64,000 nucleotides of DNA. It comes from an uncultured Porphyromonadaceae bacterium. GTDB lineage: Bacteria > Bacteroidota > Bacteroidia > Bacteroidales > Muribaculaceae. The stretch covers positions 1-64,000 of the forward strand of contig CANOLV010000011.1 in assembly GCA_947567425.1 (NCBI GenBank), given 5' to 3'. The notes under the pieces were generated by a model. It saw nothing but the letters and a program-made list of their open reading frames with translations, had not been told where the DNA came from and searched no databases. Positions 161-43,461 of the stretch are shown in pieces. Both the position numbers and the translations under genes were made by a program. The stretch's first letter is position 1. Each line of letters opens with the position of its first letter.

Positions 161-1750
161 GTGCGCAAGTCATCGGTCATAAAATTACTTTTTCTGATAG
201 TCATAGTTCATGCAGTCGACGTTTTGGCGTCGCCCGTATCGTCCGTGTCGCATAAAGATGTCGGGCAAATGCTGGACCGGCTCGACAATGAACTCAAACG
301 GCATGAGATATATTTCGAGTCCCACGAACGGCTTATCGATTCGGTCAACCGCTTGATCGACGCACGGCCCTACGATACAGCCGGACGCCTTCGGCTGATC
401 GAAGAAAAGGGAGACCTTTACGAAAGCTATCTGTCGGACTCGGCAATGGCATGCTACGACTTAGGACGCAGAGAAGCCATCGCCGCCAATGACAGCGCGA
501 TGGCCATACGGTTTACATTGAAGTCGGCAGTGTGCATGCCGTTGGCCGGATTTGTCGGCGACGGAGTCAAGATGTTTCAATCGGTCGACATCGACTCGCT
601 CCCGCCCGACCTGCAGGAGCTCGCGCTTGAATGCGGGCGCCAACTCTACAGCTACGTGGCCGCATTCTACTCCACATACCCTAAAGAATATGACCGATGG
701 ACCGGCATGTCGACCGACCTCCAGCGCAGGCTCATCGACCGCCTCGACAAGGACAGCCCCAAATATCTCCTCAACCAAGGCGAATACATGTTTATGACCG
801 GACATCACCGCCAGGCCAAGGCCCTCCTGCTCGAACTGCTTGAGATCGTGCCGCCCGACTCCAACATCGCGGCCCGTGCGGCCAATATAATAAGCCAGGC
901 CGCCGGAATGGACGGGCTTAAGGACGAACAGCTATATTATCTCGCCCTCTCGGCCATAGCGGATATACGTTCGGCCACACGCGAAGTGGTGTCGCTTCAG
1001 CAACTCGGCACAAACCTCTACGAAGCAGGCGACATCGACCGGTCGAGACTTTATCTCGCCCACGCTCTCGACAATGCCGTGGAATGCCGAGCAGCCATGC
1101 GCATGCTGCAGACCTCGAAATCCCTCCCTGTAATCGACAGGGCACATCAGGAGACACTCAAACTCGGACGCACAAGGCTATATCTGGCCATTATGTTCCT
1201 GATACTTCTGATGATATGCCTTATCGTGGTGCTAACGTTGCTGCACCGCGAGATGAAGCGTATGAAGGAGCTGCAGAAACATCTCGAAGATGCCAACAAC
1301 ATCAAGGAAATGTACATGAGCCACTTTCTCCATCTCTGCACAGTGTACATGAACAAACTTAACCAATTCTGCCAGATCTCCATAAGAAAGATCTCCACCG
1401 GACACACCGACGAATTGCTGAGGCTTATGAAATCCGGGAAAATGGTAGGAGAACATACCCGGGAATTCTACGACACATTCGACAAGGCATTCCTCCACAT
1501 ACACCCCAATTTCGTCAACGACGTCAACAAACTGCTGCGCGCCGACGAGAAGCTGACGCCCCAGGAAGGTGAACTTCTCAGCACCGACCTCCGCATACTG
1601 GCCTTCATCCGTCTGGGTGTGACGGACAGTTCCACCATAGCCCAGGCTCTGAACTACTCACTGCATACAATCTATGCCTACCGCAACCGTCTGCGCAACC
1701 GGGCCATCGACCGTGAAAACTTTGAAATGAATATATCGCGTACAGGTTAG
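161..1750 (+). CDS. DUF6377-type membrane-anchored transcriptional regulator (copy 1)
   Basis: This 529-residue protein starts with GTG and an N-terminal signal or anchor sequence. A helical, TPR-like sensor half is followed by one transmembrane helix near residues 338-360, a coiled-coil linker, and a C-terminal helix-turn-helix near residues 472-517 of LuxR-like character (LGVTDSSTIAQALNYS then IYAYRNRLRNR). This layout is that of the Bacteroidetes DUF6377 family, often found near glycan-uptake loci. No SusC/SusD genes are visible here, so the target is unknown. It is a tandem paralogue of the next gene, with the same domain order and similar length. The regulatory role is inferred from the HTH. 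Confidence 0.8.
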   Translation: MRKSSVIKLLFLIVIVHAVDVLASPVSSVSHKDVGQMLDRLDNELKRHEIYFESHERLIDSVNRLIDARPYDTAGRLRLIEEKGDLYESYLSDSAMACYDLGRREAIAANDSAMAIRFTLKSAVCMPLAGFVGDGVKMFQSVDIDSLPPDLQELALECGRQLYSYVAAFYSTYPKEYDRWTGMSTDLQRRLIDRLDKDSPKYLLNQGEYMFMTGHHRQAKALLLELLEIVPPDSNIAARAANIISQAAGMDGLKDEQLYYLALSAIADIRSATREVVSLQQLGTNLYEAGDIDRSRLYLAHALDNAVECRAAMRMLQTSKSLPVIDRAHQETLKLGRTRLYLAIMFLILLMICLIVVLTLLHREMKRMKELQKHLEDANNIKEMYMSHFLHLCTVYMNKLNQFCQISIRKISTGHTDELLRLMKSGKMVGEHTREFYDTFDKAFLHIHPNFVNDVNKLLRADEKLTPQEGELLSTDLRILAFIRLGVTDSSTIAQALNYSLHTIYAYRNRLRNRAIDRENFEMNISRTG

Positions 1751-40113: not shown

Positions 40114-40186
40114 GCCGCAATAGCTCAGTCGGTAGAGCATTTCATTCGTAACGAAAAGGTCGTGGGTTCGAGTCCCACTCGCGGCT
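40114..40186 (+). tRNA. tRNA-Thr (anticodon CGT), prophage attachment site
   Basis: A 73-base cloverleaf: acceptor GCCGCAA/TCGCGGC, D arm GCTC..GAGC, anticodon loop TTCGTAA (anticodon CGT, reads ACG), T arm GTGGG TTCGAGT CCCAC, discriminator T; CCA is not encoded. Two A-C mismatches are present, 31-39 in the anticodon stem and 6-67 in the acceptor. In both, the C is in the 3' half, the part a phage attachment core would supply. The prophage begins right after it. Confidence 0.93.
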
Positions 40187-40320: not shown

Positions 40321-40785
40321 CTAAAATTTCCTTTTGATATATAGGAAAAGTAGCCACATGAGCGCGGCGATACATACCCCCAGCCCTAACCGGGCTAAGG
40401 CTGTTTCGTACCATTTCTGCGCTGGGGCTTTTTCCTCGGTGCGTTTCTCGTGCTGGGTTCGGTCGGCAGTCACACCGTTAAGCTGCTCACGGTGTCCGGC
40501 GGTTTCCTCAGCTTTTTGGGTTACGCCCTTATTCTGCGCGATACTTCCTTTGTGCTGACCCTTGATATTTTTTACACCCTCAAAGGTTACGTTACCTGCG
40601 CTGTCTATACTTACTTTGCCACCGCCTTCTACAAACTCGATAACTCCGACACCCTCATAGGCTACTGCGGTCTTGGTGGTGTCGGTCGTAGTTTGCTTAT
40701 GCCCGATGGTGTCGACTACGGTCTTGGTGGTGTCAGCATACGACAGACTGCTATCTCGGTCGGTATGTCGAATCTCTGAATTCAT
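40321..40785 (-). CDS. Tail-anchored phage membrane protein, unknown function
   Basis: 154 residues from the ATG at 40785 (MNSEIRHTDRDSS). A longer reading frame to 40860 would translate through an intrinsic terminator and is not favoured. The protein is Thr/Asp-rich, has a Gly-rich middle and charged helical stretch, and ends in one membrane helix (LGLGVCIAALMWLLFLYI) with a KRKF tail. No lipobox or signal is seen. It is the last gene before the attachment site and forms its own unit behind two terminators, as expected of an accessory or lysogeny-expressed gene. Confidence 0.65.
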   Translation of the reverse strand: MNSEIRHTDRDSSLSYADTTKTVVDTIGHKQTTTDTTKTAVAYEGVGVIEFVEGGGKVSIDSAGNVTFEGVKNIKGQHKGSIAQNKGVTQKAEETAGHREQLNGVTADRTQHEKRTEEKAPAQKWYETALARLGLGVCIAALMWLLFLYIKRKF

Positions 40786-40913: not shown

Positions 40914-40962
40914 TCGATAAAAAAACACCGCAACATCAAGCCTAAGCTTAGATGAGCGGTGT
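40914..40962 (-). terminator. Intrinsic terminator downstream of the 40979 promoter
   Basis: ACACCGC / GCGGTGT (7 bp) with an inner CATC / GATG and AAGC / GCTT stem, followed by about seven T on the minus strand. Confidence 0.8.
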
Positions 40963-40973
40963 CCTCTCTCCTT
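40914..40973 (-). ncRNA. Candidate short RNA of about 60 nt (or attenuated leader)
   Basis: A perfect promoter (40979-41010) would start RNA near 40973, which ends at the terminator 60 bases later. The RNA begins with a purine block AGGAGAGAGG and is otherwise mostly the terminator hairpin. It may be a free small RNA or the terminated leader of the gene at 40785. Confidence 0.5.
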
Positions 40974-40978
40974 GAATG

Positions 40979-41010
40979 CAAAGATAGGTCTGATTTCTTG
41001 ATTGTGCAAA
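40979..41010 (-). promoter_or_regulatory. Perfect Bacteroidetes-type promoter after the XRE gene
   Basis: Minus strand: TTTG at 41010-41007, exactly 20 bases, TATCTTTG at 40986-40979. It begins 11 bases after the XRE stop codon. Confidence 0.75.
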
Positions 41011-41020
41011 TAAATCTGAA

Positions 41021-41500
41021 TTATTCGAGGGTGATGCGTTTGCCCAGGGCGGACGCGATGGATGCAAGGATGTCGATGGTGACGGCATACCGGCCGTTCT
41101 CGATGTTCGACAGGTGGGCGTTGCTGATCCCGCAGAGAGGGGCGAGTTGCCGGAGGGTCATTCCCTGCCGTTCGCGCTCGGCCTTTATCATAAGCCCCAT
41201 CCGTTCGCGCTCAGACTGCCGGAACTCCGCCATCGCGTCGGACCGCTTGATCCCGGCCTGTCCGTCCCGGTTCCTGACCAGCGTCTCCGGATGTTCGTCG
41301 GCAAGCCACTGCGCCATCATGCGCATAGCCCTCGCCACGGCCATCGGGTCGGGATTGACCATGTCGTCGAGGAAAGTCACTTTCTGAGTCTCGTTGAACT
41401 GACCTCGGACGAACGTCAGCACGATGCCGAGTTCGGTGTCGGTAAGCACAAAGCCGTCGGCAATCTTCTCCGACGGCTGTAGTATGTATCTGTCTGCCAT
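41021..41500 (-). CDS. XRE-family helix-turn-helix regulator
   Basis: 159 residues. The C-terminal 55 residues are a Cro/CI-type HTH (MIKAERERQGMTLRQLAPLCGISNAHLSNIENGRYAVTID). The N-terminal 100 residues are acidic and helical without a known domain. It follows the small acidic gene at 41503 by 2 bases, making a two-gene unit. It may regulate one of the nearby phage promoters, but it is not placed like a main lysogeny repressor. Confidence 0.8.
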   Translation of the reverse strand: MADRYILQPSEKIADGFVLTDTELGIVLTFVRGQFNETQKVTFLDDMVNPDPMAVARAMRMMAQWLADEHPETLVRNRDGQAGIKRSDAMAEFRQSERERMGLMIKAERERQGMTLRQLAPLCGISNAHLSNIENGRYAVTIDILASIASALGKRITLE

Positions 41501-41502
41501 AA

Positions 41503-41754
41503 TTAGAATCTTGAATAGTACCAGTCGCTCTCATACACGTCCTCCGGCTCTGCATCCTCGTCGTCGGCATCCCATGCCGTGATGACAAGCTTGTAACAGT
41601 CGGCCATGTCGGTGTAGGGGTCTACGCCGTCGTCCACCTTGACCTCTCCCATTAGTTCCTTTTCGGCATACGCCATGGCCTCTTCAAGGGTGTTGAAAGT
41701 TTTGAGGGTTGAAACGTTAGCTTTGTCTTCGTAATTAACTGAGTAAGTAGTCAT
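41503..41754 (-). CDS. Small acidic protein upstream of the XRE regulator
   Basis: 83 residues from MTTYSVNYEDK. The centre has DTLEEAMAYAEKE-like character (NTLEEAMAYAEKELMGEV) and the tail is rich in Asp/Glu with aromatic ends (YESDWYYSRF). The longer frame to 41817 runs into the promoter, so the shorter start is used. It is translated just before the XRE gene and could be its partner. Not a family I recognise. Confidence 0.6.
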   Translation of the reverse strand: MTTYSVNYEDKANVSTLKTFNTLEEAMAYAEKELMGEVKVDDGVDPYTDMADCYKLVITAWDADDEDAEPEDVYESDWYYSRF

Positions 41755-41814
41755 TGTCGTTTTGCAGAGTTTAACGACCTGCGCCGGTCGGTTAGTTGGG
41801 TTATGATTACAATA

Positions 41815-41845
41815 CAAAGGTAGGCATTATTTTCTTTGCTACAAA
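41815..41845 (-). promoter_or_regulatory. Promoter of the 41754-41021 two-gene unit
   Basis: Minus strand: TTTG at 41845-41842, 19 bases, TACCTTTG at 41822-41815. The leader has a CGACC / GGTCG dyad near 41775-41789, a possible operator. Confidence 0.65.
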
Positions 41846-41866
41846 ATATTATAGCAAATATTTTTG
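41835..41866 (+). promoter_or_regulatory. Divergent, overlapping plus-strand promoter match
   Basis: TTTG at 41835-41838, 20 bases, TATTTTTG at 41859-41866. It overlaps the opposite promoter and contains a TTTGCTA / TAGCAAA dyad (41835-41858). Transcripts would run antisense into the gene ending at 41961; no plus-strand gene is seen there. The AT-richness makes chance possible. Confidence 0.35.
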
Positions 41867-41882
41867 TTAATAAAATTTAAAC

Positions 41883-41917
41883 AAAAAATCCCGGCGGTGC
41901 ATCGCGCATGGCCGGGA
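41883..41917 (-). terminator. Intrinsic terminator of the phage late operon
   Basis: TCCCGGC / GCCGGGA stem with a 15-base loop, followed on the minus strand by TTTTTTG, 44 bases after the stop of the 41961 gene. Confidence 0.8.
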
Positions 41918-41960
41918 CTCCTAACTAAAAAATCCAATTATACCAAAATCAACAGTAAGG

Positions 41961-42446
41961 TCAGTTATTGTCCATCGAACACGGACGTGCGTTCGGCCCG
42001 ATGCAGTATTTGCCGGGCGGATAGCTTCTGAATCCTCCGTCGTAGGTCAAGGCCGTTCCGTCGGGCAGGATGAAGCAGTCGCCGTCTATCTTGTGGCATG
42101 TCTCAATATTGGCTTTAATCGAGACCCAATTGTCGTCCAAATGTACATCGTGACGGTGGACCAGGTCGTGGTGGACTTCAAAACGTGAGCTGTCCCTATC
42201 CCACGTAAGTCTGCACTGCCCCAATTTTTGGTAGATCTTAACGCTCTTGCTTGCAACTATCACACTGTCAATGGCACGCCGTGGGGACATCGTGATGTCT
42301 CCTTCGATGACCAAGGCATTCGATAAATCATAGCGTTCGTCATTTTCAGCAACGCCGCCGGCTACCGCTCCGTTGGGGCCGACGGACAGGGATCCTTCTA
42401 CATAGATATTACCTTTCACATAAATATTTACTTTCTTATTTTCCAT
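41961..42446 (-). CDS. Phage protein of unknown function, last gene of the late operon
   Basis: 161 residues from MENKKVNIYVKGNIYVEGS; the longer frame has an arginine-rich out-of-character start. The first half is beta-like with alternating hydrophobics; the second is His/Asp-rich (HHDLVHRHDVHLDD) and ends in a short cysteine-containing tail (YCIGPNARPCSMDNN). Thirteen bases follow the spanin-like gene. No family recognised. Confidence 0.6.
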   Translation of the reverse strand: MENKKVNIYVKGNIYVEGSLSVGPNGAVAGGVAENDERYDLSNALVIEGDITMSPRRAIDSVIVASKSVKIYQKLGQCRLTWDRDSSRFEVHHDLVHRHDVHLDDNWVSIKANIETCHKIDGDCFILPDGTALTYDGGFRSYPPGKYCIGPNARPCSMDNN

Positions 42447-42459
42447 AATTGATTGATTT

Positions 42460-42927
42460 TTAACGTTTGATTTTCCTTGCCAGCCAAGCCACGGCGATGC
42501 AGAGGGCCACGGCCGCCGCCGACAGCGCATAGCCACCGTAGTCCTGCTTCGTCCGCTCCCAGCGGGTCAGCTTCCGCTCCACCGGGTAAGGCACGGGCAC
42601 GGAGTCCTGCTTAATCGATTTCAGGGAGTCGACCACCGACCGCAGACGCTCGTTCTCCGTCTCCAGGGTCCGGTCGCGTACATGGACTATGCGCGTGTCG
42701 ACCCTCAGGGTGTCCCCCTGCTCGTTGACGGTGACCTTGGTCTCCGAGCTTTCCGACTCGCGGGTCGACTCCTTGACCGACTCCTTGACGTTGTCCGACA
42801 CCTCCCTCTCCCGGTCTACATGCTCGGTGGCCACCTCCGCCACCGGCACGTACTCCTTGACCGTCCGGCATCCGTACAGCGCGAAGGCCGACATCACAAG
42901 GAATAATATTGTTGATTTTCTTTGCAT
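42460..42927 (-). CDS. Putative unimolecular spanin (lipoprotein plus C-terminal membrane helix)
   Basis: 155 residues from MQRKSTILFLVMSAF, with a lipoprotein signal ending ALYGC (Cys20), a charged Ser/Glu-rich coiled-coil middle (residues 40-125), and one membrane helix near 132-150 followed by KIKR. An outer-membrane lipid anchor joined to an inner-membrane helix across the periplasm is the u-spanin plan, used to fuse membranes at the end of lysis. It lies next to the endolysin gene, supporting this. No sequence family match was made. Confidence 0.65.
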   Translation of the reverse strand: MQRKSTILFLVMSAFALYGCRTVKEYVPVAEVATEHVDREREVSDNVKESVKESTRESESSETKVTVNEQGDTLRVDTRIVHVRDRTLETENERLRSVVDSLKSIKQDSVPVPYPVERKLTRWERTKQDYGGYALSAAAVALCIAVAWLARKIKR

Positions 42928-42952
42928 GTTTGAAATAATTCCCATATATTTG
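42921..42952 (+). promoter_or_regulatory. Perfect plus-strand promoter within the lysis cassette
   Basis: TTTG at 42921-42924, exactly 20 bases, TATATTTG at 42945-42952. It opposes the late operon and overlaps the start codon region of the spanin gene. Confidence 0.65.
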
Positions 42953-42958
42953 CAGATG

Positions 42959-43022
42959 TAATCCTCGAGGAGAGCGCGACCGTCGGCACAGTATAGGAGA
43001 GAGGTGTCCGGCGGTCTTTTTT
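42959..43022 (+). ncRNA. Candidate antisense small RNA between endolysin and spanin
   Basis: The promoter at 42921-42952 would start RNA near 42959, and an intrinsic terminator ends it near 43022, giving about 64 nt with no reading frame. The terminator is a 9-bp stem GACCGTCGG / CCGGCGGTC plus CAC/GTG past a one-base bulge. Its 14-base purine loop contains GGAGAGAG, and TTTTTT follows. On the minus strand the same hairpin lacks a T tract, so it is not the endolysin terminator. The RNA is complementary to the endolysin-spanin intergenic mRNA. Confidence 0.55.
42978..43022 (+). terminator. Intrinsic terminator of the lysis-cassette small RNA
   Basis: 9-bp GC-rich stem (42978-42986 with 43008-43016) and six T on the plus strand; the T tract overlaps the endolysin stop codon on the other strand. 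Confidence 0.7.
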
Positions 43023-43461
43023 ATTCCTCCCCGAAATACCGTGAGGCTTCCCATTCCCTGCGCTTGACCAGCCCCGGCAGGCGTTTCCCCTTCGAGTGGA
43101 CCCACCTACGGAACTCGTCGCGGATCGACGGATTCCCCGGACACGACCTTACCTTCTTCAGCAGGGTCGAGCTTCGCAGGTTCCCCGCGCCGAGGTTGTA
43201 GGTGAAGCTCACCAGCGCGTCGTACTGGCACTGGCTCAGGTTCGTCCCGCCCACGGCCATGTCGACCGCACGCTCCGTCCCCGCTATGTCGCCCTCGAAG
43301 AGCGCGTCGGCCCTCGCCTCCGTTATCCGCAGTCCTTTCGCAACGTCGGCCCCAGTATGGCCGTAGCCCACGGTCAGCACGCCGGAGGGGCATCTATAGG
43401 CTTCGAGCCTCAGTCCCTCGAACTCCTTGATCTTCGCTTTCGCGTATTCACTTGTTTTCAT
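43021..43461 (-). CDS. GH24 endolysin (lysozyme)
   Basis: This muramidase degrades peptidoglycan at lysis. Starting at MKTSEYAKAKIKEFEG gives 146 residues. The GH24 triad spacing E-8-(D/C)-5-T is met by Glu15, Cys24 and Thr30, followed by VGYGHTG. The rest, with QYDALVSFTYNLGAGNL, is typical. Using Cys instead of Asp in the triad is known in several phage lysozymes. No signal sequence, so a holin or export helper is needed. Confidence 0.92.
   Translation of the reverse strand: MKTSEYAKAKIKEFEGLRLEAYRCPSGVLTVGYGHTGADVAKGLRITEARADALFEGDIAGTERAVDMAVGGTNLSQCQYDALVSFTYNLGAGNLRSSTLLKKVRSCPGNPSIRDEFRRWVHSKGKRLPGLVKRREWEASRYFGEE

Follow-up and report, generated by a model that had tools for sequence, protein, structure and literature searches.

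Small RNAs described in Bacteroides include antisense RNAs of the DonS type, RteR, GibS and 14 FopS RNAs (PMC7366714; PMC11697453). The FopS RNAs of B. thetaiotaomicron are described as a single-stranded 5' seed followed by a terminator, with susC-like mRNAs as targets, and both FopS and GibS have a canonical sigma-ABfr promoter and several paralogues, presence in a phage also being reported (PMC11697453). The DonS RNAs (PMC7366714) are short antisense RNAs with their own promoter that lie opposite a protein gene, namely susC homologues of glycan loci; the same paper lists 78 cis-antisense candidates, with the warning that some antisense transcription may stem from random promoters.

We analysed a stretch of 64,000 nt from an uncultured Muribaculaceae bacterium (the window), in which a plus-strand promoter closely followed by a terminator-like hairpin (42921-43022; hereafter unit 1) lies antisense between the lysin and spanin-like genes of a prophage. 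A second promoter-terminator unit with the same 20-nt promoter spacing (unit 2) lies ~2 kb away in the same prophage. The layout of unit 1 is of the same kind as that of the known Bacteroides small RNAs, while motif and place differ. With FopS and GibS unit 1 shares a sigma-ABfr-type promoter, a motif and a Rho-independent terminator, a layout also seen in the GAGGAGAGAGG units discussed below, but its full motif sits in the loop with only a partial copy on the 5' side, whereas the FopS seed is single-stranded and 5'. Like the DonS RNAs, the RNA of unit 1 would be short, antisense to protein-coding DNA and driven from a promoter of its own, but the unit is flanked by, and encoded opposite, a lysozyme and a u-spanin-like gene and not a susC homologue.

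The lambda-type late promoter and terminator, with 6S RNA and Q antitermination, resemble unit 1 in that a promoter is closely trailed by a terminator near phage lysis genes. Unit 1, however, points against the lysis genes, and read-through would yield antisense RNA only; the comparison suits unit 2 better, with a gene downstream on its own strand. Unit 1 is ordinary in kind and interesting in place. Provided that it is transcribed, unit 1 would represent a small-RNA gene opposite a lysin-spanin joint; our open-access literature searches turned up no paper describing antisense RNA within a Bacteroidota lysis cassette, and to our knowledge lysis timing in gut Bacteroidota phages, and the small RNAs that these phages carry, have been little explored.

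Setting and anatomy of unit 1

The window comes from a draft genome (G000; 2.9 Mb in 57 contigs). Its placement in the Muribaculaceae agrees with lysozyme loci, since those of named Muribaculaceae and Paramuribaculum assemblies have sequences identical to loci in genomes of the window's family (L123 and L167/L168; L126 and L175). The prophage in the window runs rightwards from a tRNA gene (40114-40186). Its minus strand carries the genes for lysis, tail, capsid, portal, terminase and replication, and a plus-strand phage-repressor-like gene with Peptidase_S24 and HTH_3 domains sits at the far contig end. The features of interest are as follows.

40919-41010, minus strand: unit 2, the second promoter-terminator unit (TTTG 41010-41007, 20-nt spacer, TATCTTTG 40986-40979, AGGAGAGAGG 40972-40963, hairpin ACACCGC/GCGGTGT, T run)
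42460-42927, minus strand: u-spanin-like gene (N-terminal lipobox, C-terminal hydrophobic segment; aligned with 21 homologues)
42921-42952, plus strand: Bacteroidetes-type promoter of unit 1, read from the sequence (TTTG 42921-42924, 20-nt spacer, TATATTTG 42945-42952)
42958-43022, plus strand: candidate small RNA of unit 1, ~64 nt (5' end placed from the promoter position, 3' end from the T run)
42966-42974, plus strand: partial motif copy CGAGGAGAG, 3 nt 5' of the unit 1 hairpin (TCGAGGAGAG in common with the viral contig unit of L014)
42978-43022, plus strand: intrinsic-terminator-like hairpin of unit 1 (9 bp with one G.U, plus CAC/GTG, then T6)
42995-43004, plus strand: full motif AGGAGAGAGG in the unit 1 terminator loop, mostly unpaired in the predicted RNA
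43021-43461, minus strand: endolysin, Phage_lysozyme (PF00959, E 2.7e-42; phrog_7)

The u-spanin-like protein had no match in Pfam or PHROG. Aligned with its 21 homologues it shows an invariant lipobox cysteine and a C-terminal hydrophobic stretch, which we take to be the build of a unimolecular spanin (u-spanin). In our judgement its start is probably ATG 42927 rather than ATG 42945, because the signal length then equals that of the homologues, whose starts in the alignment were chosen by us. The family was found in 47 of the 397 genomes of the bacterial family (own genome included), and the spanin alignment matched 146 stretches of viral contigs, 80 of which were kept; the spanin sequence alone had no relative in that collection (viral_contigs), and nor did the gene at 41961-42446. 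Among capsid-related close relatives of the prophage (25 of 68 loci, hand-picked), we counted 0 lysozyme matches and 4 weak spanin matches.

The original prediction of a plus-strand promoter in perfect agreement with the Bacteroidetes consensus was borne out by both boxes and their 20-nt spacing. With the start at 42927, the -33 box falls in spanin codons 2-3; the unit is antisense to the lysin-spanin junction and its promoter overlaps the spanin start, as had been claimed. The stem arms are GACCGTCGG (42978-42986) and CCGGCGGTC (43008-43016), the G.U pair being 42983/43011; RNAfold extends the stem by CAC/GTG with a one-base bulge, and T6 follows at 43017-43022, where it overlaps the lysin stop codon (43021-43023, minus strand). 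The 9-bp stem followed by six T had been described correctly, whereas TATATTTG is 25 nt and not 26 nt from the stem. The loop measures 21 nt, or 14 nt counting the CAC/GTG extension, and a first terminator scan restricted to loops of ≤8 nt missed it.

The T run is present on the plus strand only, and the odd stem pair reads G.U on the plus strand and A.C on the minus strand. Since the minus strand has this mismatch and lacks a T run, the structure favours a plus-strand transcript, and a minus-strand attenuator or terminator was rejected on the same two grounds. Only two frames start after the -7 box, namely ATG-TAA (42956) and one opening with GTG (43004) and continuing past the terminator; a small ORF within unit 1 was thus rejected, in line with the earlier statement that no reading frame lies between promoter and terminator. 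Folding energy is by itself unremarkable (-21.6 kcal/mol for the 64-nt RNA, z -1.6, 14 of 200 shuffles equally good; RNAfold). Two marks of an antisense small-RNA gene were found, namely its own canonical promoter (exact motif, exact spacing) and a 3' intrinsic terminator (9-bp stem and T6, plus strand only). The reading that we favour, tentatively and at somewhat less than even confidence, is that unit 1 is a stand-alone small-RNA gene whose RNA acts by base pairing and damps the lysin-spanin mRNA in cis, possibly also in trans.

Rarity of the arrangement and recurrence of its motif

The promoter pattern TTTG N19-21 TATATTTG is rare: the 440 kb examined of this genome contain it 3 times, and 10 first-order Markov replicas contain it 0.3 times on average. 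At 14 of 27 host sites of the strict motif TTTG N18-22 TANNTTTG an ORF of at least 120 aa began ≤150 nt downstream (8.5% of random positions), and only 5 of the 27 lay inside ORFs of at least 120 aa (87% of random positions); the strict motif is meaningful in this host. A strict promoter followed by a terminator within 120 nt was found twice in the 440 kb, both times in this prophage, and in none of 5 Markov replicas. When the promoter definition was relaxed and the terminator had to lie within 110 nt, host DNA (400 kb) had 76 promoters and no such pairing, whereas the prophage (37.8 kb) had it at 2 of its 10 promoters. The pairing was also seen at 8 of 48 promoters in the 58 lysis-gene loci of the same family (189 kb), at 1 of 21 in the lysozyme loci of 8 named assembly loci (73 kb) and at 7 of 48 in the viral loci (447 kb; two near-duplicates among the 7). 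Since the host set was made up of contig starts and the first 40 kb of the window, while the phage sets had been chosen for their lysis and capsid genes, the contrast between host and phage is suggestive and not a matched one. Unit 1 is unlikely to be a random pairing of promoter and hairpin.

Units 1 and 2 have the 10-mer AGGAGAGAGG in common in the same transcriptional sense, and unit 1 carries it between promoter and T run (shuffle P 0.002-0.004: 0.004 for two shuffled units sharing at least 10 nt, 0.002 for shuffled unit 1 containing AGGAGAGAGG). Genome-wide the word is not rare: the 2.9 Mb hold 7 copies of it and 8 of its backwards form. One of the 7 copies in the own genome (G000:C1:233861, L197) lies between an apparent tRNA 3' end and a strong 16-bp terminator hairpin. 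Unit 2 lies between the HTH_3 gene at 41021-41500 and a downstream gene (40321-40785) encoding a protein with a hydrophobic segment at its end. By eye, the minus-strand stretch ahead of unit 2 (41021-41932) is moron-like, with a terminator-like hairpin (~41925-41880), then a promoter-like TTTG N19 TACCTTTG, an 82-aa gene (weak PHROG match, E 0.0085) and the HTH_3 gene. The unit 2 promoter is 85% identical over 39 nt to a promoter preceding a 126-aa ORF elsewhere in the genome (L560), the product of which presumably resembles a BlaI/MecI-type repressor.

A scan of the examined loci, followed by a pattern search of the viral collection and the 397 family genomes, turned up at least four more loci with a -7 box, 4 nt and then GAGGAGAGAGGA, at or directly before an intrinsic terminator (gene contexts judged by eye).

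L014: viral contig unit, after the spanin gene
L508/L512 (genome G179): unit right after an integrase-like gene
L509/L513 (genome G076): unit right after an integrase-like gene
L507/L511 (genome G037): unit in apparent host intergenic DNA

Three of these have most of the hairpin in common, and the stems of the G037 unit and unit 2 differ in sequence with pairing kept. The three sister-genome units were retrieved with the motif itself and their number is partly circular; because the loci were found in this way, promoter box and terminator are their informative part. In the folds of unit 2, L014 and L507-L509 the motif stands 5'-most and its first part is unpaired, in contrast to the place of the full motif in the loop of unit 1. 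Before its hairpin unit 1 holds only the first 8 of the 12 nt of GAGGAGAGAGGA (GAGGAGAG, 42967-42974), 3 nt before the stem. Its local similarity to the other units gave P 0.004 for the best of four (single values from 0.0016 for L507 to 0.04 for L014), was best with L507, where it extends beyond the motif, and was lower for the opposite strand (scores 12-17 vs 20-26). A GTG frame after the motif in L014 was set aside, being by eye not shared by unit 2 or L507.

With a -7 box and the word within 60 nt in the examined loci, GGAGAGAGG was not commoner than its reversal (5 sites each), GGAGAGAG gave 5 vs 7 and GAGGAGAG 3 vs 0. Of twelve scrambled 12-mers (2 mismatches allowed, terminator required), nine gave no unit and the other three gave 4, 4 and 1, compared with 5 for the motif; both fours were the motif's own sites, reached through the allowed mismatches, and the one was another site. 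The loose pattern TTTGC N0-20 AGGAGAGAGG is near background (44 sites in 40 of 397 family genomes vs 32 for the backwards control). A terminator was present at 4 of the 38 sites (of 44) checked by script, and these terminator-bearing matches all fell in the genus of the window (4 of its 14 genomes, own included, vs 0 of 383 others; 38 of 44 sites inspected). A 20-nt pattern with ≤3 mismatches matched all 14 genus genomes, about like its control, with 3 exact sites, no 1-mismatch site and one extra checked locus bearing a hairpin without a promoter box (L539), and a tighter search of the viral collection returned 7 stretches, of which only the L014 contig is, by eye, a unit. The GAGGAGAGAGG set should be held loosely, and membership of unit 1 in it more loosely still.

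The motif shared with unit 2 suggests that the unit 1 RNA may also, or mainly, work in trans. Taken to its end, unit 1 would be cargo, a moron-like small-RNA gene that came to lie in the lysis cassette by chance, with its purine motif directed at other phage or host mRNAs and lysis unaffected. We consider this rather unlikely. It would accommodate the occurrence of the motif in unit 2, in the units after integrase-like genes (L512, L513) and in the apparent host intergenic unit (L511), as well as a position in the lysis cassette that is not conserved among the 95 junctions described below; but any RNA from unit 1 would be fully complementary to the lysis mRNA, making some cis effect hard to avoid, and none of the motif sites in the own genome was recognised as a trans target (one of them, G000:C4:3456, resembles a 5' leader on the opposite strand, but only a very short frame follows).

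The lysin/spanin joint in related loci

Together with the window, 113 spanin loci (29 loci of family genomes, 4 lysozyme loci and 80 viral stretches) were compared, leaving 95 junctions once identical ones had been dropped, the identity of the upstream gene having been checked for part of the 95 only. At 70 of the 95 non-redundant junctions the spanin gene is overlapped by the gene upstream or separated from it by <30 nt, and 32 of these closed junctions have a 4-nt (ATGA-type) overlap; elsewhere the gap is 34-59 nt (4 junctions) or at least 60 nt (18), or the upstream gene is out of reach (3). As most gaps are so short, the one in the window looks like an insertion, and unit 1 like a lineage-specific insertion into a joint that is usually closed.

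An antisense promoter and an antisense terminator occurred together only in the window and in L094, and among the other 94 junctions 4 had an antisense promoter-like site without terminator and 3 a terminator-like site without promoter. The L094 case (1325-1438, minus strand, genome G359) is an independent antisense promoter and hairpin at a lysis-gene/spanin joint; as in the window, the hairpin comes after the stop codon of the upstream gene and the promoter begins in spanin codons 2-3, but the sequences are unrelated, the T run of L094 is weak and its upstream gene is different. Unit 1 was absent from the few loci found to carry a lysozyme relative as well as a u-spanin gene (L014, L126/L175 and L176); in L014, whose lysozyme is 86% identical to that of the window, a small hydrophobic frame occupies the position of unit 1 (by eye). 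The original prediction had looked to a promoter and stem conserved in related prophages that keep the flanking genes, and had named their absence as ground for doubting a function; absence is what these loci show, the L094 analogue being unrelated. Such conservation would speak for a function without being strictly necessary for it. Unit 1 is a good candidate small-RNA gene, while its role in lysis, which the original prediction saw as holding lysis back or setting its timing, is a hypothesis that conservation does not support.

In direct DNA searches a 161-nt query matched in full in its own genome only. The 396 other family genomes yielded short matches (26-57 nt) in 12, 10 of them within the promoter part, and the phage and plasmid collections gave short, weak matches in 150 and 52 records (E limit 10), none covering 80% of the query. 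An 18-mer of unit 1 had one match in the viral collection, which was not unit-like.

Such singularity would also be expected of a by-product, in which the AT-rich stretch is the translation-initiation region of a spanin gene uncoupled from the lysin gene and promoter-like by chance, the hairpin a remnant or spacer, and any antisense transcript noise. The pair is absent from 93 of the 94 other junctions and its elements occur singly elsewhere (4 promoter-like only, 3 terminator-like only), in keeping with the caution in PMC7366714 that random promoters can yield antisense transcription. Both boxes of unit 1 are exact and have the usual spacing, however, neither the 400 kb of host DNA nor any of the 5 Markov replicas of 440 kb contains a promoter-terminator pair, and a 10-mer is shared with unit 2, all of which leaves this explanation doubtful in our view.

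Predicted pairing and a possible role in lysis

Under the reading that we favour, unit 1 as a small-RNA gene acting on the lysin-spanin message, a promoter-plus-terminator cassette would have been inserted into the usually closed lysin/u-spanin joint, and housekeeping (sigma-ABfr) RNA polymerase would make an RNA of ~64 nt from it in the lysogen. The sequences show the anatomy of the unit, its rarity, its absence from homologous junctions and the shared motif; transcription, termination, pairing and any effect on lysis we infer. The RNA would present AGGAGAGAGG in its loop, with the partial copy upstream, and would act by base pairing. Over its whole length it would be complementary to the late mRNA across the joint of lysin and spanin, and in the predicted fold of that mRNA the complement CCUCUCUCCU occupies an open loop, unpaired with probabilities of 0.98-1.0 at 9 of its 10 positions. 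In cis, the RNA could thus pair with a late mRNA whose complementary hairpin shows CCUCUCUCCU, and would damp the lysin-spanin message until late transcription swamps it; action in trans might be added through the motif common to units 1 and 2. We also scanned 296 overlapping 160-nt minus-strand windows of 40187-64000 for partners of the 5' end of unit 2, and the best were two windows over the lysin-spanin junction (-23.3 kcal/mol), by a thin margin over unit 2 itself (-22.6) and an unrelated window (-22.3).

That the DNA of unit 1 might instead serve on the sense strand, where the unit 2 RNA (or a relative) would dock with its 5' AGGAGAGAGG end on the CCUCUCUCCU shown by the late-mRNA hairpin and so control lysin/spanin expression in trans, seems very improbable, for although ten contiguous complementary bases with four pairs beyond an internal loop, the open loop in the predicted mRNA fold and first place among the 296 windows speak for it, the complementarity is automatic if unit 1 is itself a member of the set, the stem contains an A.C mismatch on the minus strand, the pairing wins by a thin energy margin only, and the plus-strand promoter and T run would be a coincidence.

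Unit 1 as a cis-acting small-RNA gene could also be part of a larger scheme, which we regard as a long shot. In one Muribaculaceae genus, phages and hosts would share a small set of purine-motif RNAs, and this prophage would have built the motif into its lysis cassette, so that the lysis mRNA shows the complementary loop and could be silenced both by the antisense RNA and, in trans, by other members of the set, whether unit 2, a host-encoded one or one carried by another phage; the outcome would be an RNA safety catch on lysis and cross-talk between mobile elements.

Rfam 15, including the FopS model RF04319, gave no match over the units (those of the window, L014, L200, which is unit 2, and L507-L509), and the shared motif would mark a compact group of phage and host RNAs without an Rfam 15 match. 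As a positive control, RF04319 matched a FopS RNA in L508 (47-114, plus strand, 62 bits). This RNA lies ~200 nt upstream of the G179 integrase-like gene and ~1.4 kb from the G179 GAGGAGAGAGGA unit at the gene's other end. In three family loci a promoter-terminator unit directly follows an integrase-like C-terminus, namely in L101 (from 912, plus strand), L182 (from 321, plus strand) and L184 (from 3035, minus strand). These units, which had no Rfam match, have a constant TTATTGGTTTGACTT, a GC-rich hairpin of varying sequence and a T-rich tail, and could represent a small RNA or part of an attachment site.
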